Positions 41,421-54,990 of a DNA stretch of 64,000 nucleotides are shown here, piece by piece. The position numbers were made by a program, and so were the translations under genes. The stretch is from contig NZ_BCNB01000006.1 in assembly GCF_001485575.1 (NCBI RefSeq), positions 248,001-312,000 on the forward strand, given 5' to 3'. This DNA is from Haloarcula sp. CBA1127. Lineage in GTDB: Archaea > Halobacteriota > Halobacteria > Halobacteriales > Haloarculaceae. Positions within the stretch are counted from its first letter, which is position 1. Each line of letters starts with the position of its first letter. The notes beneath the pieces are model-generated. The model searched no databases. It saw only the letters and a list, made by a program, of their open reading frames with translations, and was not told the DNA's origin.

Positions 41421-42503
41421 ATGAACGTTGACGCGCTCACGGGAGGATTCGACCGTCGAGACTGGCAGGAACAGACAGAGACCGACGATCCAGTACGGTT
41501 CGCGATGATCGGCGTCGGCTGGTGGACCACCGAACAGGCGATGCCCGCCGTCGACGCGGGGGACCTCTGTGAAACGACTGTACTGGTCAGCAGTGACCGC
41601 GAGAAGGCGGCCGATGTGGCTGCAGATTCGGAGACAGTCGAACACGCGATTACCTACGAGGAGTTCCACGACGGGGCCGCAAGCGACGCGTACGACGCCG
41701 TCTACATCGTCACCCCGAACGCGCTCCACCTCCCGTACGTCGAGACAGCGGCAGAACTGGACAAGGCGATCCTCTGTGAGAAGCCGATGGAAGCCACCAT
41801 CGAGCGCGCCGAGCGAATGGTCGAGGTCTGTGAGGAACACGACGCGACGCTGATGATAGCCTATCGGATGCACACCGAGCCAGCCGTCCGGCGGGCGAAG
41901 GACCTCATCGACGAGGGCTACATCGGCGAGCCGCTGTTCGTCCACGGCAACATGACCGAACCCATTCTCGAACTCGTCCCCGACCCCGACCAGTGGCGGC
42001 TGGACGGGGAGCTGTCCGGTGGGTGTGCCGTCATGGATATCGGCATCTATCCGCTGAACACGAGCCGATTCCTGCTGGATGCCGACCCCGTGGCCGTCCG
42101 GGGAACCGTCGCATCGGTGCAGGAGGAGTTTGCCGACGTGCCCGACGAACACGGGGCGTTCCAGCTAGATTTTCCTGGCCACGCGTACGCGGTGTGTACC
42201 GCCAGCCAGAACGCGCATCTCGACAGCCACATCTCCGTACTCGGAACTGAGGGCAAGGTCCGCGTCGAACCGGCCTTCTACCCCTGGGACGACCGCGCGC
42301 TCCAGCTTTCCCACGAGGGAACGACAGTCGACATCGACTTCGAACAGATCGACCAGATGGAAGAGGAGTTCGAGTACTTCTCTCACTGCCTGCTGACCGG
42401 CACTGAGCCCTACGCCGACGGGGAACACGGCCTCGTCGACATCAACACAATCAAAGCCGTCTACGAGGCCTCCGAGACGGAGTCGACGGTCACACTCGAC
42501 TGA
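41421..42503 (+). CDS. xdh: D-xylose dehydrogenase (Gfo/Idh/MocA family)
   Basis: 360 residues. N-terminal Rossmann fold (RFAMIGVGWWTTEQAMPAV), the catalytic-lysine motif CEKPMEA near 120, and the C-terminal domain with GCAVMDIGIYPLNTSRF (Asp and Tyr/His-type positions). Sequence and length resemble the characterised NADP-dependent xylose dehydrogenase of Haloarcula marismortui, which oxidises xylose to xylonolactone. The ATG at 41421 lies about 26 nt after a TATA-like GATAATATCC. The lactonase candidate follows 44 bp later. Confidence 0.9.
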   Translation: MNVDALTGGFDRRDWQEQTETDDPVRFAMIGVGWWTTEQAMPAVDAGDLCETTVLVSSDREKAADVAADSETVEHAITYEEFHDGAASDAYDAVYIVTPNALHLPYVETAAELDKAILCEKPMEATIERAERMVEVCEEHDATLMIAYRMHTEPAVRRAKDLIDEGYIGEPLFVHGNMTEPILELVPDPDQWRLDGELSGGCAVMDIGIYPLNTSRFLLDADPVAVRGTVASVQEEFADVPDEHGAFQLDFPGHAYAVCTASQNAHLDSHISVLGTEGKVRVEPAFYPWDDRALQLSHEGTTVDIDFEQIDQMEEEFEYFSHCLLTGTEPYADGEHGLVDINTIKAVYEASETESTVTLD

Positions 42504-42547
42504 CTGCGGTGCGAGATTTTTTGACCCGGCCAGGTGTAGTTCAGCGC

Positions 42548-43408
42548 ATGGTTCAGTCAACGTGGGACGACTGGTTCGTCCGCGACGAGATAGAGGCGAC
42601 AGACCCCGGTGACGGCGTCGTGATCTGGTATCTCGGCTGTAACGGGTTCGTACTCCGCTCGCAGTCGACGACGCTGTACATCGACCCCTACTTCGGGACT
42701 GGCGACCCGCCAAACCTCATCCGGATGATTCCGGTGCCGATGGACCCCGCCGACGCAACCCAGTGCGATGCCACACTCGTCACACACGAACACATCGACC
42801 ATATGCATCCGCCGTCGTACGGCCCACTGGTCGAGGATCTCGGCGCGGACCTGTATGCGCCGTCGGCATCGTATGACTCTCCGGACTACGACGGTGAGCT
42901 GCGGGTGCCCGACGAGCAGCGCAACGAAATCGCCGTCGGTGACGAGTTCGCTGTCGGTGATTTCACCGTGCACGTTACTGGCACCAACGACCCCGACGCC
43001 ATCGAACCGGTGGGGTACGTCATCGAGCACGACGCCGGGACGTTCTTCCACGCCGGCGATAGCCGGCCTGCCGAGGCGTTTTCCGACGTCGGCGAGCGGT
43101 TCGACATCGACGTGGGGGCGCTGGCGTTTGGCACCGTCGGCTCTATCTACGAGCCCGAGCCGGACCGCGGTGTCAGAACGAAGTGGTACATGGACGAAAA
43201 CGAGATCATCGAAGCCGCAAATCAGCTCCAGCTATCCCGGTTGCTCCCCTCGCATCACGATATGTGGCAGGGCGAAGCCGGCGACCCGAAGGTCCTCCAC
43301 GAGCACGCGGTGTCGTTCGACTACCCCCGCGTCATCGAACCGCTGTATATCGGCTGTTCGGTTCGGCTGGGCGAGCCCGGGATTCGTCGTCTTGACGCGC
43401 TGGAGTGA
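42548..43408 (+). CDS. UlaG-like metal-dependent hydrolase, candidate pentonolactonase
   Basis: 286 residues, metallo-beta-lactamase fold of the UlaG (L-ascorbate 6-phosphate lactonase) type: LGCNGFVLRSQSTTLYIDPY, the metal motif THEHIDHMHP, FFHAGDSRPAE and a distal His pair in LLPSHHDMWQG. UlaG opens a lactone ring, and the gene lies between xylose dehydrogenase and xylonate dehydratase, so hydrolysis of xylonolactone is the natural prediction. This is context inference; other lactonase families also serve the step. Start at 42548 avoids an upstream Arg-rich extension. Confidence 0.75.
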   Translation: MVQSTWDDWFVRDEIEATDPGDGVVIWYLGCNGFVLRSQSTTLYIDPYFGTGDPPNLIRMIPVPMDPADATQCDATLVTHEHIDHMHPPSYGPLVEDLGADLYAPSASYDSPDYDGELRVPDEQRNEIAVGDEFAVGDFTVHVTGTNDPDAIEPVGYVIEHDAGTFFHAGDSRPAEAFSDVGERFDIDVGALAFGTVGSIYEPEPDRGVRTKWYMDENEIIEAANQLQLSRLLPSHHDMWQGEAGDPKVLHEHAVSFDYPRVIEPLYIGCSVRLGEPGIRRLDALE

Positions 43409-43471
43409 TTGAGACCGTGGTTCCGGTCGCTGCTGTGTCGGCCGCTCAAACAAAGACGGCGTATTTGTCGC

Positions 43472-43490
43472 GGGGTAGCTTTAATACCCC
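43472..43490. promoter_or_regulatory. Inverted repeat enclosing the TATA box of the xylonate dehydratase gene
   Basis: GGGGTA-N7-TACCCC, with the TATA-like CTTTAATA (43479-43486) across its centre. The ATG is at 43511, about 27 nt from the TATA centre. A regulator bound here would block TBP directly. Candidate sugar-responsive operator. Confidence 0.5.
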
Positions 43491-43510
43491 CACCACAGTA
43501 TGTCCGGCAA

Positions 43511-44686
43511 ATGTCGCCAACAATAACGAAGATCGAAAGCCGAGAGTTCGAGTACCCCCTCGAAGACGTGGGGACCGACAAACACGGCTTCAATCTGGTC
43601 TATGCGCCGGGCGAGACAACCACGCGGAAACTATTCGGCGTACAGATCCATACTGACGAGGGCATTACGGGCGAGTACGTCGGCGGCAACTCGCCGGCAG
43701 CCGCCCAGTACAACATCATCGCGAAGTACCTCATCGGCAAGGACCCGCTGAAACGCGAGAAACACTGGTCCGAATGCAAGCGCGCGCTCCGGAAGTACGA
43801 CCGGATGGGTATCGGCCCAATCGACATCGCGCTGTGGGACTTCGCCGGCAAGTACTACGACGCGCCGATCCACGAGCTGCTGGGGACCTACCGCGAGCGT
43901 ATTCCCACCTACGCGTCGACGTACCACGGGGACGACGCGGGCGGGCTGGACTCACCCGAAGCCTTCGCCGACTTTGCCGAGGAGTGCCGCGACGAAGGCT
44001 TCGGCGGCTTCAAGATTCACGGCTGGGGCGGCGGCGACGACTCTCGAAGCCTCGATCGCGAAGTCGAAGCGGTCCACGCCGTCGGCGAAGCGGTCGGCGA
44101 CGAGATGGACCTGATGCACGACCCCGCCTGCGAACTGGAGACGTTTGCCGACGCACTGGAACTTGGCCGGGCGCTCGACGAACAGGGCTTCTTCTGGTAC
44201 GAGGACCCGTTCCGCGACGGCGGTATCTCACAGCACGCCCACAAGAAACTGGCACAGAAACTCGACACGCCGATTCTCCAGACCGAACACATCCGCGGAC
44301 TGGAAATCAAGTCCGACTTCGCAGCCAGCGAGGCGACTGACTTCCTCCGGGCCGACCCCGAGTACGACGCAGGCATCACCGGCGCGATCAAGGTGGCCCG
44401 CATGGCCGAGGCGTTCGGGCTCGACGTGGAGTTCCACGCGCCCGGTCCCGCCCAGCGCCACTGCATCGCCGCCTGCCGCAACTCGAACTACTACGAGATG
44501 GCGCTGGTCCACCCGGACTGCCAGAACACCCAGCCGCCGGTGTACGAGGGCGGCTACTCCGACCTGATGGACGCCGTCGACGACGACGGGACGGTCGGTG
44601 TCCCCGACGGCCCCGGCCTGGGCGTGGAGTACGACTGGGACTACATCGAGGACAACACCACCGGGAGCCTCCACGTCTACGAATAA
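43511..44686 (+). CDS. Xylonate dehydratase (enolase superfamily)
   Basis: 391 residues, mandelate-racemase-like enolase-superfamily enzyme. Visible active-site elements: FKIHGWGGGDD (Lys-x-His), DLMHDPACEL (metal Asp), FWYEDPFRDGG (metal Glu), PILQTEHIRG (third metal Glu) and EFHAPGPAQRHCIAAC. It differs from the galactonate dehydratase at 4746-5921 around these motifs, as expected for a different sugar acid. Haloarchaeal xylonate dehydratase belongs to this family, and the gene ends the xdh-lactonase-dehydratase run. It has its own promoter with an inverted repeat. Confidence 0.88.
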   Translation: MSPTITKIESREFEYPLEDVGTDKHGFNLVYAPGETTTRKLFGVQIHTDEGITGEYVGGNSPAAAQYNIIAKYLIGKDPLKREKHWSECKRALRKYDRMGIGPIDIALWDFAGKYYDAPIHELLGTYRERIPTYASTYHGDDAGGLDSPEAFADFAEECRDEGFGGFKIHGWGGGDDSRSLDREVEAVHAVGEAVGDEMDLMHDPACELETFADALELGRALDEQGFFWYEDPFRDGGISQHAHKKLAQKLDTPILQTEHIRGLEIKSDFAASEATDFLRADPEYDAGITGAIKVARMAEAFGLDVEFHAPGPAQRHCIAACRNSNYYEMALVHPDCQNTQPPVYEGGYSDLMDAVDDDGTVGVPDGPGLGVEYDWDYIEDNTTGSLHVYE

Positions 44687-44838
44687 CGGCACTGTTTCTC
44701 CCGGTAAGCGCACCCGGGCCGTTTTGACCGCCTCAGTAGCGAGTCGTCTCGTCGTTCGCGGGGACAGGCCGCCAAATGTCGTCCTATTTGATCGCAGGCC
44801 AATACTTATGCCGGACTCGTCCGAACGGGTAGTAATTG

Positions 44839-46146
44839 ATGACAGACGGAGACAGGACCCTGACCCGCCGGGAAGCGCTCCGCGCAGCTGTCGCCGTCGG
44901 AGGGTCGGCAGGGCTCGCAGCCTGCCTCAACCTAGAGAACCAGCCAACGGAGACGGAAGAGGCTGACCGCGACACCGACCGGCCAGATGGCACCGAACCA
45001 GCGGCTGAACTGCCGAATCGACAGCACGCATGGGACGAGTTCTCTCGAACCGACGAGCACGGGAACCCAGTGCTCGCTCGGCACCACGTGTTGCTACTGG
45101 CCGACTACGTTGGCGATGGACCGGTCGACGACGGGGACCGGAAGCAGGCTGCAAACGCGTTTCGCGAGCTAGAGGAGACGTATCGGTGGGCGTCTGACGG
45201 ACTTCTGTTTACTGTCGGCTACTCTCCAGCATACTTCGACCGATATGACGAGCCGCTTCCGGAGTCGGTTGACCTGCCACAGCCAGCGGCACTGGCCCCT
45301 TTCGAGGACCCGTCGTTCGATACCCCAGATATCCTCATTCATCTGGCAAGCGACCGTGCTTCGGCGGTGCTTGAGGCCAAGCAAGCGCTATTCGGTGAGT
45401 TAGAAACGGCAAACGGGAGCGAAGTCACCGAAACCATAGACGGGATAGTCGAGTTGGTCGACCGGCGGACGGGATTTATTGGTCCGGGGCTCCCGGCGGA
45501 ACACGACGACGTGGATGGCGTTCCGGACGGAGCGGTCCCCGAAGATGCACCGCTGTTCATGGGTTTCAAATCGGGGTTTGTAGAGAATCAGGCGACAGAA
45601 GACAGCGTAACGATCGCGGAGGGGCCGTTCGCGGGCGGCACCACGCAACACCTCTCACTGCTACGCACGGAGCTGGACCAGTGGTACAACCAAGATTCCC
45701 GGGAACAGCGCGTCGCAAAGATGTTCTCGGCGACGCACGCGGCGGAAGATCTGGTCGAGGGTGTCGGCGACAACCTCGGTGATTCGTCGCTCGTAGCGGA
45801 GACTGGCGTCGGTGACCGAGTCAGTGACGACGCATTTGAGGAAGGCGTGGTCGGGCACGCACAGAAGCTCGCACGTGCGCGAGACGAAGACGGCGAGCCA
45901 CGGCTCCTCCGACGCGACTTCGCGACGGTAGACGATGGCCGAACCGGTGTCCACTTCCTCAGTCTCCAGGAGAGCATCGCGGACTTTATTCAGACCCGGA
46001 CCGCCATGAACGGAACCGATGTTGCGAATGTCGGCGGCGTCGGCACGAAAAACAACAACGGGATACTGCAGTACATTACCACAGTTCGACGCGGGAACTA
46101 CTTGCTCCCGCCCCGATCAAAGCGCTCGTTCCCCCGTCCGTCGTGA
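44839..46146 (+). CDS. DyP-type peroxidase-like Tat lipoprotein
   Basis: 435 residues. A Tat lipoprotein signal (LTRREALRAAVAVGGSAGLAAC, lipid Cys C29) puts it outside the membrane. The body follows the dye-decolorising peroxidase pattern: FMGFKSGF (242-248) at the GxxDG position, PFAGGTTQHLSLLRTELDQW, the predicted haem ligand H340 in GVVGHAQKLAR, and GVHFLSLQESIADFI. The catalytic Asp of GxxDG is replaced (GFKSG), so haem peroxidase activity is doubtful. In bacteria DyP proteins (EfeB) work with iron importers. The ATG at 44839 is preferred to a TTG one codon earlier. Confidence 0.75.
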   Translation: MTDGDRTLTRREALRAAVAVGGSAGLAACLNLENQPTETEEADRDTDRPDGTEPAAELPNRQHAWDEFSRTDEHGNPVLARHHVLLLADYVGDGPVDDGDRKQAANAFRELEETYRWASDGLLFTVGYSPAYFDRYDEPLPESVDLPQPAALAPFEDPSFDTPDILIHLASDRASAVLEAKQALFGELETANGSEVTETIDGIVELVDRRTGFIGPGLPAEHDDVDGVPDGAVPEDAPLFMGFKSGFVENQATEDSVTIAEGPFAGGTTQHLSLLRTELDQWYNQDSREQRVAKMFSATHAAEDLVEGVGDNLGDSSLVAETGVGDRVSDDAFEEGVVGHAQKLARARDEDGEPRLLRRDFATVDDGRTGVHFLSLQESIADFIQTRTAMNGTDVANVGGVGTKNNNGILQYITTVRRGNYLLPPRSKRSFPRPS

Positions 46147-46201
46147 CCCGACTGGACCCACAGCCCTCCCGAACGACGGCGATAGTGTGTCCCTGACAAG
46201 G

Positions 46202-46209
46202 TTTTATAT
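46202..46209 (+). promoter_or_regulatory. TATA box of the P19-like gene
   Basis: TTTTATATT-type element about 35 nt before the ATG at 46241, predicting a start near 46233 and a leader of about 8 nt. The P19-like gene can thus be made separately from the DyP-like gene. Confidence 0.5.
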
Positions 46210-46240
46210 TCTTTCCGAGAGACTAATCACTATACAGACC

Positions 46241-47401
46241 ATGTGGCCCGGGAGAGACCCTACGCGCCGTGACTTTATCGCTATGAGCGGGGTAGCACTT
46301 GGGATGAGTGTCGCCGGCTGTGCAACGGGGGACGACGCCGCAAGCGAGACTGAGACTCCATCCGGGGCTGCACCTGGCGGGACCGAAGCAACGCCCGAGG
46401 GAACCAAAGCGGGGCGGGAGAATGAACTCCCGACAGCTACTGCGCAGGAACGCCCATTGGTACACATCCCGGCACATCAGGACGGGATGCGGATGGTCGG
46501 TATGACGGAGGTAGGACCGTATATGATGGCAATGTCTTATACACTACTTCACGACTTCTGGGTACTGACTGGCCAGGAGAAGAGTTACGTACGGATCAAC
46601 GATGGACAGGGACTGCACCTGATGGCAACCGTGTGGGATCCGGAGTATAACCAACGTATCCCGCTAGGTAGCCCGCCAGTCGAGGTTCGAGACGCCGCGA
46701 GCGGCGACAGTGTGGCCGAGAAGTCGCTGTGGCCGATGCTGTCCCAGCAGATGGGCCCCCACTTCGGGGACAACGTCGCGTTTCCGGAGGAGGGTGAGTA
46801 CACGGTACAACTCTCGTTTGACCCGGTTTCGGCGCGGCAGTTAGGCGAGTATCGCGGGCGATTCACCGACTCGGTGGACGCCGAGTTCGACCTGCTGTTC
46901 AGAACCGACATCACGAACAACATTCGCGAGCGGTTCGTCGATGAGGCGGGACAAGCGGGGGCGCTCGAACCGATGGAAACGAACATGAAACCCAACGGAT
47001 CGCTGCCGGAGGTGAGGGCGCTACCAGGCGAACACGGCGGTATCGTCGAGGGTGGGGCCGCGAAATTTGTGGTCCAGGTTCTGCGCAGGGCCCCGGCGGG
47101 AATCGACAGCTCTGGCCCGTATCTCGCCGTGTCCGCTCGAACGCCGTACAACCAGTATCCACTCCCGTTCATGGGTCTCCGAGCAACTGTGGCCAACGCC
47201 GGTGAGGAGGTCCGCGAGCCACTGAAGGCAGCCATTCACCCCGAACTGGGATACCATTACGGTGCCCCGTTCCCTGCTATCGCGATGGGTGACGAGGTGA
47301 CGCTAGAGGTCGGAGCCCCGCCGCAGATCGCGCGACATCGCGGCTACCAGACTGCGTTTCTGGAGTTTGACGACATGACGCTCACACTTGGAGAGCAGTA
47401 G
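46241..47401 (+). CDS. P19/Tp34-like metal-binding Tat lipoprotein
   Basis: 386 residues. Signal PTRRDFIAMSGVALGMSVAGC (lipid Cys C27), then a Thr/Glu linker. The region 73-195 resembles the P19 periplasmic iron/copper protein: HIPAHQDGMRMVGM, GLHLMATVWDPEY, SLWPMLSQQMGPHFGDNVAF (Met and His ligands M167, H175) and EGEYTVQLSF. A second beta domain (about 240-386) is extra compared with bacterial P19. Together with the DyP-like neighbour 94 bp upstream it suggests a surface metal-acquisition pair; no FTR1 permease is in the window. Confidence 0.7.
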   Translation: MWPGRDPTRRDFIAMSGVALGMSVAGCATGDDAASETETPSGAAPGGTEATPEGTKAGRENELPTATAQERPLVHIPAHQDGMRMVGMTEVGPYMMAMSYTLLHDFWVLTGQEKSYVRINDGQGLHLMATVWDPEYNQRIPLGSPPVEVRDAASGDSVAEKSLWPMLSQQMGPHFGDNVAFPEEGEYTVQLSFDPVSARQLGEYRGRFTDSVDAEFDLLFRTDITNNIRERFVDEAGQAGALEPMETNMKPNGSLPEVRALPGEHGGIVEGGAAKFVVQVLRRAPAGIDSSGPYLAVSARTPYNQYPLPFMGLRATVANAGEEVREPLKAAIHPELGYHYGAPFPAIAMGDEVTLEVGAPPQIARHRGYQTAFLEFDDMTLTLGEQ

Positions 47402-47575: not shown

Positions 47576-49264
47576 TTACGCTGTCGTGATGCGGCCTTCG
47601 ACTGACGGCGAAATCGTCCCGTCTTCCTTGATTGCGTCCTCGACGATGACCGACAGCAGTTCGCCCTCGTTCGCGTCGATAATGCGTGGAGCATCCTGGA
47701 ACATCGTGTAGCCGTCGCCGCCGGTGGCGGTGAAGCCGTTTGTTGCGACGGTGTAGGTTGCTTCGGTGTCGAGTGGCTCGCCGCCGACCGTTACCTCAGT
47801 GACGCGGTCGCCCTTCGATTTGTCCGGGTCGTAGGTGTACCGCATGCCGCTCACTTGCAAGAACCCGCCCCCGCCAGTCGAACTGAGTTCCAGCGCCTCG
47901 ACCAGCGTGTCACCGGTAACCTCGATGGTCACTTGGTTGTTTCCGAACGGGAGAACGCTGTATACCATCCGTCTCGTGATGTCCCCTTCGGGGTAGAGTT
48001 CGTCAGTCCGGATGCCGCCACCGTTCTGGATTGCGACGTCCGCGTCGCCGTGGCTGCGGAGCGCATCGGCGATGTAATTCCCGAAGTTCGATTCCTCGGA
48101 ACGGACAGTGTCCTCGCGGGCATCGAGCGGAACGGTTGTCTCCCCGATGACGACGTCGAGTTCGTCACTGAGCTGGCTTTCGTAGTTCTGGGCGACTTCG
48201 AGCACGTCTGGGTGCGGTTCGACACGGTCCTCCTCGACCGCAGCAGCGGTGTCGTACACCGTCAGGCTGTGGTCGGTACGCTCCCCATCTTCGACGGTGA
48301 GCGTCAGCTCGCCGAGGTACTCGTACTCGTCCCCGACGAACGAAAGTACCGTGTCGTTCACGACTTGCGGGTCCTCAGAGAACTTCGCGGCGTGGTCGCC
48401 GACGATGGCGTCGATCCCGTCGACAGACTTCGCGAGTTCGACGGCGACCGGGCTCGCCACGTGGGACAGTACGACGACGAGATCGGCGCCGTCGGCCCGC
48501 ATTTCGGTCACGACCTCGTCGACGGGATCCTCAAGGCCCGGGACATCCGTGGTCTCGCCCATGGTCGTGATCGTCGGTGCTTCGACGTTGATTATGCCCG
48601 TGATACCGACCGTCACGTCGCCGGCCTCGACGAGTTCGTACTGGCTCGCTCCCTGTTCAGCACCGAACACGTCGCCAGTCTGTGTGTTGCGGGCGTTCGC
48701 GCTTACCCACTGGAACTCGCTGTCGATAATACGGTCCCGCAAAACGTCCGGCCCTCTGTCAAAGTCGTGGTTTCCGAACGTGTCGAACTCCAGCCCACCC
48801 TCGTTGAACGCGTCGACAATGTGTTTCCCGTCGAACTGTGCGGAGAGAATGGAGGTGGCCAGATCGTCCCCGGATCCAACCTTTATCGCGTGTTCGTTAT
48901 TGTCCGCAATCTGGTTCATCAGATCGAAGTAGGTGGCGATGTTCGCCGCCTCTTCGAGGTCGCCGTAACTGCCGTGGACGTGGGTGTCGTGGACGAGCGT
49001 CACCTCGCCCGTTGCAGGTTCAGATTCGGTCTCGGCAGTTCCAGCTGAAGTCGCGGTCTCCTGAGCGTCCGTAGATGCTTCGTCGGTCTGCTCAGTCCCG
49101 TCCTCGGTACTAGAAGAACAACCAGCGAGGCCCACAGCGCCGAGTGCAGCAGTAGCCGAGAGGAACTTCCGCCGGTCGACTGGTCTGTTCTCCGTATCGT
49201 TCTCTGTTCGGTCCGCTGAAGGGGTTTCTACGTCATCTTTGTTGCTTCGTGCCACAGTACCCAT
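47576..49264 (-). CDS. 5'-nucleotidase / cyclic phosphodiesterase (UshA type) Tat lipoprotein
   Basis: 562 residues. Tat lipoprotein signal VDRRKFLSATAALGAVGLAGC, then a Thr/Glu/Ser linker. The metallophosphatase domain has DTHVHG, GSGDDL, FGNHDFDRG and VVLSHV; the C-terminal nucleotidase domain has ESNFGNYIADALR, IQNGGGIRTD and ATGGDGYTMF. It releases nucleosides and phosphate from extracellular nucleotides. Its TATA box (TTTTATATAAAA, 49275-49286) is only about 16 nt from the ATG, so a GTG at codon 4 (49255) may be the true leaderless start. Confidence 0.9.
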   Translation of the reverse strand: MGTVARSNKDDVETPSADRTENDTENRPVDRRKFLSATAALGAVGLAGCSSSTEDGTEQTDEASTDAQETATSAGTAETESEPATGEVTLVHDTHVHGSYGDLEEAANIATYFDLMNQIADNNEHAIKVGSGDDLATSILSAQFDGKHIVDAFNEGGLEFDTFGNHDFDRGPDVLRDRIIDSEFQWVSANARNTQTGDVFGAEQGASQYELVEAGDVTVGITGIINVEAPTITTMGETTDVPGLEDPVDEVVTEMRADGADLVVVLSHVASPVAVELAKSVDGIDAIVGDHAAKFSEDPQVVNDTVLSFVGDEYEYLGELTLTVEDGERTDHSLTVYDTAAAVEEDRVEPHPDVLEVAQNYESQLSDELDVVIGETTVPLDAREDTVRSEESNFGNYIADALRSHGDADVAIQNGGGIRTDELYPEGDITRRMVYSVLPFGNNQVTIEVTGDTLVEALELSSTGGGGFLQVSGMRYTYDPDKSKGDRVTEVTVGGEPLDTEATYTVATNGFTATGGDGYTMFQDAPRIIDANEGELLSVIVEDAIKEDGTISPSVEGRITTA

Positions 49265-50459: not shown

Positions 50460-50814
50460 ACCTCCGAAATTCCGCCCATCGGGTCTTAAAAGCTGGTACG
50501 TCCCAGTCGTGACACGGCAGCCCCGCTGTAGACAGACCTGTGGGAATCTGTTGGGCTGTCGTCGCTACCACAATCGGTGTGTCGGAATGTGTGGCCGACA
50601 GATCAGGTGTGTCAGTCAACGCCGCCTTATACTGGCCAAGCGGTGTGATACCAGAGGACAGCTAAGAGTAGGTTCGTCCCAGAGTCGAAGTCCGGGCTAC
50701 GGTTCGCAGAGCCGAGACGAAGTCGATCATTCGTTACGGAGAACAGTCAGTATCCGGAAACAGTGCGTCTATCATAAATTTTAACTATATAGTCACAATA
50801 CTGTATAGGAAGTG
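50460..50814. other. Divergent intergenic region
   Basis: 355 bp between the nucleoside hydrolase and the PHP-domain protein. The left end holds the hydrolase promoter (minus strand, 50484-50491), the right end a strong TATA-like ACTATATA (50784-50791) that is 27 nt before the ATG at 50815. The middle shows no gene, repeat or RNA structure that stands out. Confidence 0.6.
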
Positions 50815-53800
50815 ATGGACAGAAATCACATACGGCCAGTACTACTCAGCGTACTACTCGTTTTGTCGGTTGTCAGCACCGGCTTCCTCGGAAGCGCCGC
50901 TGCTGCACCGGGCGAGCAAAACGAGTTGGTAACGGCGAATAGCCAGACAGCAACACAGACGGCCGCAGCCGGTGGGGCGACCTGTCAGCTTGACAGTAGT
51001 TGTCCAGTTCCTGATAATTCAGTCGATCTCAACAACAGCGGTGCCGGGGTCGACGTGTTGATCGACGGGAGTCATCAGGGCTCGACGTTCACGAAGTTCG
51101 CAAACCGACTCAGCGAACGCGGATACGACGTCGACACGAAACGGTCGACGTCAGGCGGGCTAACTTCGTGGAACAGTTCGGCCGCGAACGGGCTGTCGGA
51201 CTACGACGTAGTCATCATTCCCGTCCCCCAGACGGCCTATAGCGAGGCCGAACAGGAGGCGATCGACGAATACGTCAGAAACGGCGGCAGCCTGTTCGTC
51301 GTCGGGGAGTGGACCTCACCACTGCAGGGCCACGCCGGCAAGCTCAACGACATTACCGACCCGTACGGGCTCCACTTCAACGGCGAGAGCGACAAGTGGC
51401 TCCGGAACATTCAGGACCCGACCAACAAGACAGTCGAAGACTACGAGTGGCGAGTTGTGCTCCACAACACGGGCCAGCATCCCATAATGAACAACGTCGA
51501 CACCGTGGAGTACGACGGCGTCAGTCTCAACGTGACCGATACCGAAAACGGGACGCAGGCCCCGTTGCTGTACGGTGACAGTGATACCTACGAGTACACC
51601 TACTCCACGACAGAGAAAGAGTACCCTCGTGGCGAGCGCATCGTCGGTGCGGCCGCGACGTGGGACATCGGTGACAACGGCCGCGTCGTCGCCTTCGGCA
51701 GCCAGAAGTCGGTCACGACGTATCTCACGGACGAGTGGCAGGCCGAACACCAGCAGACCGATACACGGCCGTTCCTCTTCCGGACGGTGAAGTGGCTGGC
51801 CTCGTCGGGCCACGTCGAACGACCGGAGAAGCCGGTCGCCGTCACCGGCGAGCGAATCAAGGGCGGCGAGACGCCGGCGAACGAGACGATCGTCCTGAAA
51901 AACAGCGAAGTCGCCGCCGCCATCGGCACCGAGACGAACGGCCCCTTCGGCACGCTGCCGGGCGGTATCTACGACGCCAACGCGTACGGGCTGACGACCG
52001 ACCAGATCGGCGTCGCCGAGTTCGCGTTCAACAACTTCGGGACGTGGCCGGACTACGAGTCCTTCGAGCGCCAGAACGCAACCGGTCCGAACGGCGCAGC
52101 AGTCGTCACCGCGACTGGTCACGTCAGTACGAACCCGAACGTGTCCGTCACGACGACGTACACGCTACCGGCTAACTCCAGCCATATCTGGATCAACACC
52201 ACGATGCAGAACGAGGGCGACCAGCGCCTCCCGGTCAACGATTCCGAGCGCCTCCAGAGCGGGGCCGCACTGAGTTCCGAGGGGCAGTCGACCTGGCTCC
52301 CTGGCTCGGGAACAATCGAAGAGACGCGCTCGCCACCAGTGAGTGCCGACACACTCGACCAGCCCTGGGCCGCGCTCACCGGTGACCGCGTGAGCTACGG
52401 CGTCTGGGGCGGGAACGGCTCCTTTACCTCGTACACGGGTTCCACGACCTGGATTGACCCGTGGCTCGAACACCGCCTCGATTCCGGCGAAACGCGGTCA
52501 GCGGAGTTCGCTCTCTTCGTCGGCGAGGACGGCGCAAGTAGCGGAACCAGCGAGTACTACAACAAGCAGCAGGGAACCGAGACGGGAACGGTGACCGGCA
52601 GCATCGAAAGCACGGATAACGAGTCCGTCTCACAGGCCACGGTCACCGCCTCGAAGGGCGACCGTGCGTTCACCTACACCGTCGGATCGGAGACCGGAAC
52701 GTACGAACTCGAACTCCCTGCCGGCGAGTACACGCTGACGGCCGATGCCAGCGGATTCGCGGCATCAGAGCCCAAGTCCGTCACCATCAGGAGCGGCGAG
52801 ACAGCGACCGCAGACTTCGACTCCCTGGAGGGGCCGGCCCCCGTCAACGTCACCGCAACGATAGACGACGAGGGCGAGGTCAGTCCCGCCGATGCCCGGA
52901 TTACGGTGCTCGACGGCGGCACTGCGGTCCAGACCGTCTACACCCGAACGACGCCGGCCGGCACGGCCTCGTTCCAGCTTCCGCCCGGTAACTACACCTT
53001 GGTGTTCAACCACGGGACGGGCTACATCGCCGAGCCGGTCGAGAAGAACATCTCGGTGACGCCCGGCGAATCGGTCAGCGTCAACGCGACGTTCACCGAG
53101 GAACTGGACCCCAGCGAACGCGACTGGGTCGGCATCGACCCCCACGCCCACAGCAGCGTCAGCTTCGACGGCAAGACGCCCATCGACAACTTCGTCGCCA
53201 TCCAGAAATCTGCGGGCGTTGACGCAGTGTTCATCTCCGACCACAACGCCATCGGCGGCTGGGGGTCGATGCAGTCACAGGCCCAAGAGCGCGACATCAT
53301 GTTCGTCCGGAGTGAGGAGATCACCACGGGCGACCTCGGGCACTTCAACCCCTATCCGCTGCACGGCGAGGAGATGATTGATTCCGACGGGACCCTTGTG
53401 GAGTTTATCGAGGAGTCCCGCAGCCGACACAACGCGACGGTGTTCCAGATCAACCATCCGGGTGACCGCTTCGTCAGCCTCGACAGCGCGCCCGGACAGC
53501 ACGAGGAGTACCTCCCGATGGTCGACGCCATCGAGGCGTACAACGGCCCGTACGGCGAGTCCGACGCTGCCAGCGTGCAGGGGCTGTTCACTCTCTGGAA
53601 CAACGGCTACGACATCACCGCGACCGGGGTCAGCGACGACCACTGTTCGCAGTGCTTCCCGGCGAAATACGGGAGCGCTCGCACCCGAGCATACGTCGAA
53701 GGGACCGTCACGCCCGACAAGTGGGCCCAGTCAGTGAAAGACGGGCACACGTACGCGACGTACGGTCCGGCCGTTGAGTTCACCGTCGAGGACAGGATGC

Positions 53801-54267
53801 CTGGCGAGACCGTGAACACGACCGCCGGGTCATCCGTGGAGGCGTCCGCAACGGTCCGGAACCTCGACGAACTGGCCTACGCTGAGGTCATTCGGAACGG
53901 CACGACCGTTTCGAACGTCACGCTCGACGGCACGAACGACACCATGAGCACCGACGTTGACATCGACGGGAACGCCTGGGTCGCCTTCCGCGTCGTCGAC
54001 GAAGACGGCGACCGAGCACTGACCAGCCCGGTCTGGATTTCGGCCGAGCAGGGCGCCGAATCCGGAACGGACGGCAACGGCGAGTCCGGCGGTGCCACGG
54101 CGACCGCCACGCCAGACACCGAGGACGAGTCGGCGGCAACGATGGCCGATGACACTGCAACCGCGGAGTCAGAGACGACCGCCGCGTCCGGCCCCGGGTT
54201 CACCGCTGTCGTCACGCTGCTTGCACTCATCGGTGCAGTGCTGCTCGCAACGCGGCGAGGGAGCTGA
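50815..54267 (+). CDS. Surface-anchored PHP-domain protein with PGF-CTERM
   Basis: 1150 residues. Signal peptide (about 8-32, LLSVLLVLSVVSTGFLGSAAA). A GATase/ThuA-like domain follows (about 75-340: VDVLIDGSHQGSTF, YDVVIIPVPQTAYS, GGSLFVVGEW), then a beta-rich region and two carboxypeptidase-regulatory-like Ig repeats (about 590-760). The PHP metallo-phosphoesterase domain (about 770-1000) has DPHAHSSVSFDG, FISDHNAIGGW, INHPGDRF and GVSDDHC. An acidic Thr linker and the PGF-CTERM tripartite tail (GPGFTAVVTLLALIGAVLLA) end the protein, predicting archaeosortase processing. A GTG one codon earlier is possible; ATG 50815 matches the TATA spacing. Substrate unknown. Confidence 0.85.
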   Translation: MDRNHIRPVLLSVLLVLSVVSTGFLGSAAAAPGEQNELVTANSQTATQTAAAGGATCQLDSSCPVPDNSVDLNNSGAGVDVLIDGSHQGSTFTKFANRLSERGYDVDTKRSTSGGLTSWNSSAANGLSDYDVVIIPVPQTAYSEAEQEAIDEYVRNGGSLFVVGEWTSPLQGHAGKLNDITDPYGLHFNGESDKWLRNIQDPTNKTVEDYEWRVVLHNTGQHPIMNNVDTVEYDGVSLNVTDTENGTQAPLLYGDSDTYEYTYSTTEKEYPRGERIVGAAATWDIGDNGRVVAFGSQKSVTTYLTDEWQAEHQQTDTRPFLFRTVKWLASSGHVERPEKPVAVTGERIKGGETPANETIVLKNSEVAAAIGTETNGPFGTLPGGIYDANAYGLTTDQIGVAEFAFNNFGTWPDYESFERQNATGPNGAAVVTATGHVSTNPNVSVTTTYTLPANSSHIWINTTMQNEGDQRLPVNDSERLQSGAALSSEGQSTWLPGSGTIEETRSPPVSADTLDQPWAALTGDRVSYGVWGGNGSFTSYTGSTTWIDPWLEHRLDSGETRSAEFALFVGEDGASSGTSEYYNKQQGTETGTVTGSIESTDNESVSQATVTASKGDRAFTYTVGSETGTYELELPAGEYTLTADASGFAASEPKSVTIRSGETATADFDSLEGPAPVNVTATIDDEGEVSPADARITVLDGGTAVQTVYTRTTPAGTASFQLPPGNYTLVFNHGTGYIAEPVEKNISVTPGESVSVNATFTEELDPSERDWVGIDPHAHSSVSFDGKTPIDNFVAIQKSAGVDAVFISDHNAIGGWGSMQSQAQERDIMFVRSEEITTGDLGHFNPYPLHGEEMIDSDGTLVEFIEESRSRHNATVFQINHPGDRFVSLDSAPGQHEEYLPMVDAIEAYNGPYGESDAASVQGLFTLWNNGYDITATGVSDDHCSQCFPAKYGSARTRAYVEGTVTPDKWAQSVKDGHTYATYGPAVEFTVEDRMPGETVNTTAGSSVEASATVRNLDELAYAEVIRNGTTVSNVTLDGTNDTMSTDVDIDGNAWVAFRVVDEDGDRALTSPVWISAEQGAESGTDGNGESGGATATATPDTEDESAATMADDTATAESETTAASGPGFTAVVTLLALIGAVLLATRRGS

Positions 54268-54270
54268 GCC

Positions 54271-54990
54271 ATGCGGGACACCAGCCAGCGACGGAGTCGG
54301 CGTGGGTTCCTCGGAACCCTCGCGCTGGCTGCGGTGACCAGCGCCGGGTGTAGCAGCCTCGGCGGTACACAGGACGGCCAGCCGGACGACACCGGAGCTG
54401 GCGGCTCGGCAGCGACATCCGCTGCAAGTGAAACGCCCGCACAGGCAGGCGATGGGGCACACCACGACGAGGCGCACGGCCACACGCACACAGACGGCGG
54501 TCACGACCACGGCGATGGACACAGCCACGACGGTAGCGACGACGAAACCGATATCGCTGCCGACACCGAACTCGCCGCGTTCGAGTCCAATCTGCGGAAG
54601 TGGTTCGTCGATATCGATTCCCTCGCCGTCGAAGACAGCCGCATCAGGCTGACCTACGTCACGAAGAGCACGCGCGGCCACGAACTCGCGGCCGGCATCG
54701 AGACGGTCGTCGTCTCGTTCATTCAGGCGTACACGGACGACTGGGGAGTCGATGGCCTCGATGCGGAGGTAATCGAGCCATCCGGCGACGTGATGGGCTA
54801 CTGGCGAACCGAATCGCGGTGGGTCGAACCGGTCGCCGAGGGCCACGAAACGCGGACCGCGCTGCTCGAACGGACACTCGACACGTACCACGGCCGCCGC
54901 ACTCGCGATCACGACCACGGGGAAGCCGACCACAGCGGGAACGAAAGCACTCACCAACACCACAACGGGACCGAGCACGCAGACCACTGA
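54271..54990 (+). CDS. His-rich Tat lipoprotein
   Basis: 239 residues. Tat lipoprotein signal RSRRGFLGTLALAAVTSAGC. Two histidine-rich tracts, one near residues 60-90 (HHDEAHGHTHTDGGHDH type) and one at the C-terminus (HQHHNGTEHADH), flank a central acidic domain (about 95-205: ELAAFESNLRKWFVDIDSL, GYWRTESRWVEPV). The tracts should bind Zn, Ni or Cu. It starts 3 bp after the PHP-domain gene, with a Shine-Dalgarno-like GGAGCTGA before it, so the pair is one operon. It may deliver or buffer metal for the PHP enzyme. Confidence 0.8.
   Translation: MRDTSQRRSRRGFLGTLALAAVTSAGCSSLGGTQDGQPDDTGAGGSAATSAASETPAQAGDGAHHDEAHGHTHTDGGHDHGDGHSHDGSDDETDIAADTELAAFESNLRKWFVDIDSLAVEDSRIRLTYVTKSTRGHELAAGIETVVVSFIQAYTDDWGVDGLDAEVIEPSGDVMGYWRTESRWVEPVAEGHETRTALLERTLDTYHGRRTRDHDHGEADHSGNESTHQHHNGTEHADH

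Follow-up and report, generated by a model that had tools for sequence, protein, structure and literature searches.

Proteins of the P19/FetP/FtrA type and of the EfeB type have been described as parts of iron importers (PMC9174327). In C. jejuni P19, manganese, serving as an iron analogue, is held by Glu3, Glu44, Asp46 and Asp92 at a distance of approximately 7 Å from copper (PMC9174327). In Streptomyces lividans, an operon comprises sco, ecuc, a gene for a putative copper transporter (SLI_4212) and dtpA, encoding a Tat-exported DyP; dtpA was reported to be required for copper-oxidase maturation at low copper, and the authors of that study suggest that DtpA may turn Cu(I) into Cu(II) (PMC4736821). 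With regard to the DyP pocket, an Asp-to-Ala variant of DtpB has been found to make Compound I as the wild type does, an Arg variant of DtpB forms Compound I slowly and in an unstable state, and loss of the Asp from DtpA costs much of the rate (PMC8463360). CrdA of H. pylori has been described as a Met-rich copper-binding protein (PMC9182242).

Results and Discussion

The window, i.e., the whole stretch of 64,000 nucleotides that was analyzed, is part of a 3.1-Mb haloarchaeal contig (G000:C6:248001-312000). Two ORFs stand side by side on its + strand, as a first-pass annotation made from the sequence had recorded: ORF1 (44839-46146, ATG start, 435 aa) and ORF2 (46241-47401, 386 aa). The ORF2 frame is open from 46019 and the Tat signal begins at 46241, which was adopted as the start. 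A TATA-like TACTTAT (44803-44809, + strand) lies approximately 30 bases 5' of the ORF1 start and a TATA-like TTTTATATT (46202-46210, + strand) approximately 30 bases 5' of the ORF2 start; both are candidates picked out by eye, and the latter suggests that ORF2 may have its own promoter. ORF1 carries a Tat twin Arg at residues 10-11 and a lipobox Cys29, and ORF2, likewise a Tat lipoprotein, has its lipobox Cys at residue 27. In alignments of 45 sequences each, the twin Arg and lipobox Cys of ORF2 are invariant, as are the second Arg and the lipobox Cys of ORF1, the first Arg (Arg10) being kept in at least 90% of the sequences; the annotation of both as Tat lipoproteins is thus borne out.

ORF1 matched the Pfam family DUF7405 (PF24152) with 518 bits against a curated cut-off of 27.1. 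A PDB sequence search with ORF1 alone returned no DyP and the DUF7405 family profile gave weak DyP matches in the PDB (E 0.45-0.97); therefore, the identification of ORF1 as a DyP rests on the Pfam matches of its relatives and on its predicted structure. Matches of these PDB searches to BURRH, kinase and dehydrogenase entries were taken as chance. PF20628 (Dyp_perox_C) matched 37 of the 45 DUF7405 members at E≤1 (best 1.2e-7), the window ORF1 itself giving no match to PF20628 at this or a stricter threshold, and Dyp_perox_N matched one of the 45 (E 0.21). Among the other DUF7405 proteins of this genome, one is clearly above the PF20628 cut-off of 20 (23.9-24.6 bits) and the remaining paralogue is borderline, with 20.5 bits in the genome search or 18.8 bits as a protein. 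An AlphaFold model of ORF1, built from 45 sequences (mean pLDDT 81.7), matched DyPs with a Foldseek E of 5.1e-16, and the best 50 entries showed Z scores of 25.5-26.9 over 285-319 residues; these include 7e5q (Z 26.9, 296 residues, rmsd 3.2) and EfeB of Sphingomonas (6jbn; Z 26.7). Taken together, the model and the profile matches place ORF1 firmly in the DyP-fold family, as had been proposed.

Residues C29, G242, F243, H340, R358 and R359 are invariant in the 45 aligned DUF7405 relatives; H340, R358 and R359 are also found in 28 of 28 sequences of a second alignment, which shares some rows with the first, and H372 and F383 are strictly conserved in the DUF7405 alignment. His340, noted earlier as resembling a haem ligand, thus has the number originally given to it and is kept throughout. 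The GFKSG motif (residues 242-246) that replaces the DyP motif GxxDG was also found as described: residue 245, at the place of the Asp, is Ser in 44 of 45 relatives and Ala in one, and over 71 distinct DUF7405 sequences it is Ser in 57, Ala in 12, Asn in one, Gly in one and Asp in none. The loss of the Asp is therefore a trait of the family and not peculiar to ORF1. The LRR found in the DUF7405 profile pairs with that of DtpAa (8olp), albeit weakly (E 0.45), and its first Arg, R358, is presumably the distal Arg by DtpB numbering; the proximal-His and distal-Arg roles in ORF1 are putative assignments made by alignment.

ORF1 thus resembles DyPs of the A and B types and EfeB in its predicted fold, its proximal-type His and its LRR Arg, and resembles EfeB also in its Tat export (PMC9174327). 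ORF1 differs from them in having Ser, Ala, Asn or Gly in place of the GxxDG Asp in 71 of 71 sequences, a lipobox Cys, a P19-like lipoprotein partner and no FTR1; the distal Asp is kept in DtpA, unlike in ORF1 (PMC8463360). The conserved pocket suggests haem binding, which ORF1 has most probably retained, with His340 as the ligand. Since DtpB needs the Arg and not the Asp for Compound I, whereas DtpA is much slower without the Asp, the absence of the Asp cannot decide whether ORF1 is a peroxidase. The earlier proposal of a capture protein "rather than a peroxidase" is therefore unsupported, given an invariant distal-type Arg and a DtpB that reaches Compound I without the Asp (PMC8463360).

ORF2 matched Pfam DUF7350 (PF24041) with 156.7 bits (cut-off 27), and its N-terminal part scored above the cut-off of PF10634 (Iron_transport). 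The family profile of ORF2 matched FtrA with an E of 6.9e-8. In the predicted structure (mean pLDDT 83.9), residues 80-227 matched P19, FetP, FtrA, rTp34 and HftA with Z scores of 12.8-14.6; the next distinct family was represented by the silver complex of H. pylori CrdA (Z 11.4 over 100 residues, 5% identity), and unrelated entries reached at most 9.0. ORF2 is therefore firmly P19-like by family and by modelled fold, in agreement with the first-pass annotation. The N-terminal P19-like domain (46478-46900, + strand) covers residues 80-220, or approximately 80-227, and the DUF7350 domain (47018-47386, + strand) covers residues 260-382, in which H366 is invariant and H339 is found in 42 of 45 sequences. 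When the N and C halves of ORF2 were compared as profiles, hhalign gave a probability of 96 and an E of 3.8e-9, and in the other DUF7350 protein of the genome the DUF7350 model matched both halves, with 148.5 and 27.5 bits (cut-off 27). These two profile comparisons indicate that DUF7350 is a second, degenerate P19-like domain.

The metal site was mapped by aligning ORF2 to an Azospirillum protein that is annotated as a P19-type iron transporter, whose gene adjoins an FTR1 gene and whose residue spacing agrees with the C. jejuni numbering. The place of Glu44 is taken by M128, that of Asp46 by residue 130 (Thr or Ser in 40 and Val or Ile in 5 of 45 sequences) and that of Asp92, across a one-residue gap, by M171; none of the three places is acidic in any of the 45 aligned relatives, and the Glu3 place has no confident alignment in ORF2. 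M128, M166, M171, H104, H126 and H174 are each invariant (45/45), and the N terminus is Met-rich, with M83 in 42 and M85 in 39 of 45. M166 aligns with P19 Met88, and H126 and H174 match what we take to be the P19 copper ligands His42 and His95. Three of the four presumed copper ligands of P19 would thus be kept as H126, M166 and H174; the fourth, which we take to be His132 of P19 (His151 of FtrA according to the title of 8vv6), is not conserved in the ORF2 family.

In summary of the likeness, the P19/FetP/FtrA proteins (PF10634) share with ORF2 the fold of residues 80-227 and, on the presumed ligand assignment, would share the copper-site Met and two His. ORF2 departs from them in that the acidic places have become Met and mostly Thr or Ser and one His ligand has been lost, as well as in its tandem domains, its lipoprotein anchor and the lack of an FTR1 partner. 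By sequence inference, the exchange of acidic iron-site residues for Met, together with the three presumed copper ligands that remain, makes iron less probable than a soft metal, e.g., Cu(I), and copper seems the likelier metal of ORF2. A comparable Met-rich metal site is found in CrdA/CopC-like Cu(I) proteins, exemplified by Helicobacter pylori CrdA, which have a beta fold similar to that of ORF2; sequence similarity is negligible and, unlike ORF2, CrdA has no His (PMC9182242). The proposal of a surface haem/iron capture pair is thus upheld in so far as it concerns two surface lipoproteins, and its iron part is weakened by the presence of M128, residue 130 and M171 at the Glu44, Asp46 and Asp92 places.

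Among 145 genomes of the class, DUF7405 was found in 128 and DUF7350 in 124; 124 genomes carried both, four DUF7405 only and 17 neither, and DUF7350 was never found without DUF7405 (Fisher 1e-18, a value that overstates independence as the genomes are related and phylogeny is uncorrected). One genome without DUF7350, G133, was recognized by exclusion. Haloferax volcanii carries the two families as well. Among the matches listed, 103 genomes had positions for both families; in at least 70 of these, the two lay within 3 kb (a count that leaves out the three lowest listed DUF7405 matches), at least 60 of them with both on one strand; the other 33 genomes had no such proximity among the matches listed. 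A DUF7350-type gene was present in the flanks of 63 of 79 DUF7405 loci, and in 43 of 79 it lay on the DUF7405 strand no more than 600 bases downstream, the 79 being 80 loci minus one removed by a position filter (L121), with five of the 80 identical copies. A set of 20 loci, most of them picked for the closeness of the two families, does not enter these rates. The gene caller used on these loci was crude, missing DUF7405 in 9 of 80, where it was recovered by profile search, and performing poorly at L158. The DUF7405-DUF7350 pair is therefore widespread in the class and not local.

This genome carries two DUF7405 genes in addition to the window copy. One adjoins the sole other DUF7350 gene of the genome and the other has no DUF7350 neighbour. 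A long branch is shared by the window copy and a close relative from Haloarcula sebkhae, and copies 91-95% identical to it are also present in H. argentinensis and H. amylolytica.

No FTR1 was found in any of the 145 genomes of the class, this genome included, and 4 of 14 control genomes were positive; the missing permease beside the pair is therefore not a local loss. No transporter was recognized by Pfam among eight scanned proteins of the window. The first-pass statement that no permease is nearby thus holds locally, and a search for FTR1 elsewhere in the genome, which had been proposed with it, returned none, but in other lineages a membrane protein is often encoded beside the two genes or beside either of them. 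This polytopic family, without a Pfam match, was found near DUF7405 in 19 of 80 loci; two members have 10 predicted TM segments, and H362, H412 and H420 are invariant in 11 aligned members (members at, e.g., L067:3082-4464 and L132:8727-10235). It is present in 99 of 145 haloarchaeal genomes. Among the 148 matches listed for it, at least 38 lay within 4 kb of DUF7405 or DUF7350 (23 near DUF7350 only, 7 near DUF7405 only and 8 near both). This count covers the DUF7405 and DUF7350 matches from genomes that have a 10-TM match on the list, and split 10-TM frames enter it once each, two second pieces having been dropped; a crude random null gave a mean of 1 and a largest value of 6 in 1000 draws. 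The homologue in this genome (C6:1721319-1722644, 32% identity) is unlinked to the pair. As searches of the family yielded nothing convincing in Pfam at E≤1 (best 0.033, for one of 11 members) and no match in the PDB, it is left unnamed.

At 80 loci, the neighbour clusters included an HVO_0163-type regulator (26) and DUF7471 (22). In some islands, copies are accompanied by genes for a multicopper oxidase, a halocyanin-like protein, a heavy-metal P-type ATPase and a cation efflux protein, as well as for a ZIP-like protein that scores below the cut-offs of Pfam and NCBIfam. The island P1B ATPases pass cadmium and copper subfamily models, with Zn/Cd/Hg/Pb models scoring higher; the mixed metal genes of the islands therefore do not single out copper, and zinc or iron could fit. 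Records of five species from three genera (Haloarcula japonica, Halorussus marinus, Halosegnis rubeus, Haloarcula amylovorans and Halorussus halobius) share, at 100% identity, a stretch of 19,001 bases (L046:1-19001; L106-L110) that encodes a DUF7405 protein, two DUF7350 proteins, a P-type ATPase and the 10-TM protein. Either plasmids were exchanged recently or the assemblies are cross-contaminated.

Taking into consideration the conserved ligands and the modelled folds, we tentatively propose, at a little under an even chance, that the pair forms a two-lipoprotein extracytoplasmic metal module of haloarchaea, in which ORF2 would bind Cu(I) with ORF1 as its haem partner. The residue pattern suggests that the pair could be a copper-handling module rather than a stray fragment of an iron importer. 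ORF2, anchored in the membrane, would hold a soft metal, most probably Cu(I), at the cell surface. ORF1, with haem bound through His340, could use Arg358 without the Asp to remove peroxide formed around the bound metal; alternatively, it might oxidize the bound metal, e.g., from Cu(I) to Cu(II), so that it can be stored or passed on. Moving the metal, in whichever direction, would require a membrane protein, and the approximately 10-TM protein with its invariant His residues would be the likely partner in other lineages. Against such a module speak the 33 of 103 genomes in which the two families were not within 3 kb among the matches listed, the lack of a transporter among the eight scanned window proteins and the TATA-like candidates, by which each gene may have a promoter to itself. 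The nearest worked example found, the sco-ecuc-dtpA pathway of S. lividans, serves as the analogy for the proposed copper role: there, a Tat-exported DyP that serves copper trafficking is encoded together with a putative transporter and with a lipoprotein that binds copper outside the cytoplasm (PMC4736821). The S. lividans copper proteins differ from those of the pair in being Sco and ECuC and not P19-like.

The main rival to this copper reading is capture of ferrous or haem iron, with EfeB-like and P19-like proteins feeding a permease other than FTR1. The nearest characterized folds, DyPs including EfeB and P19/FetP/FtrA, would fit such a role, as would the multicopper oxidase and ZIP-like protein near the pair in 5 of 80 loci (cluster counts, with families read from one member), but the absence of FTR1 from all 145 genomes and of acidic residues from the Glu44, Asp46 and Asp92 places in all 45 relatives makes iron capture rather unlikely. 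General peroxide defence, in which ORF1 would be a working Asp-less DyP acting through Arg358 and ORF2 merely a co-inherited metal-binding protein, is consistent with the invariant His and Arg and with the dispensability of the Asp for Compound I in DtpB (PMC8463360). However, the presence of DUF7350 in 124 of 128 DUF7405 genomes is not explained by peroxide defence alone, and we consider this role improbable. The absence of Asp at residue 245 from all 71 sequences, the variation of this residue among Ser, Ala, Asn and Gly, and the much lower rate of DtpA without the Asp (PMC8463360) could also mean that ORF1 has lost catalysis and is a structural or haem-storage partner of ORF2; the strict conservation of H340, R358, R359, H372 and F383 argues for a retained active pocket, and a loss of this kind appears very unlikely.

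DUF7405 and DUF7350 are known Pfam families of unknown function, and the parts of the pair are homologues of known proteins. Among openly licensed PMC papers, no description of the combination and its ligand changes was found, none had "DUF7405" or "DUF7350" in its full text, and the literature matches listed included no haloarchaeal DyP by title. For these two families, which co-occur in 124 of 145 sampled haloarchaeal genomes, the copper-handling module proposed here supplies an identity that can be tested, and it would join the DyP and P19 folds in a setting other than FTR1 iron import. The families also supply naturally occurring DyP-fold proteins that lack the catalytic Asp and P19 domains that lack the acidic iron site; both would help to decide the functions of these folds. 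A wider scheme, in which an Asp-less DyP-fold haem lipoprotein would oxidize Cu(I) on a Met-rebuilt tandem P19 across the haloarchaea, with the new approximately 10-TM family as a further component and with partial spread on plasmid islands, is speculative and on present evidence doubtful.

Several other features of this genome were observed. The third DUF7405 protein (L045:7876-9093), which has no DUF7350 neighbour, is 41% identical and has Ala at residue 245; a long frame near its gene resembles, by eye and with uncertainty, a molybdopterin oxidoreductase. In the window, the region 5' of the pair (41421-44686) holds genes for a GFO/IDH/MocA oxidoreductase, a metallo-beta-lactamase-fold protein and a mandelate racemase/enolase protein, perhaps for sugar-acid catabolism. 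The lipoprotein encoded at 54271-54990, which gave no Pfam match above cut-off, is of the Tat type, has several His-rich stretches and is possibly metal-binding; its gene directly follows that for a 1151-aa surface protein (50812-54267) with a CehA/McbA-type metallohydrolase domain and a PGF-CTERM anchor. Just 3' of the pair, on the - strand (47576-49264), a 5'-nucleotidase-type protein with a Tat-like lipoprotein signal is encoded.
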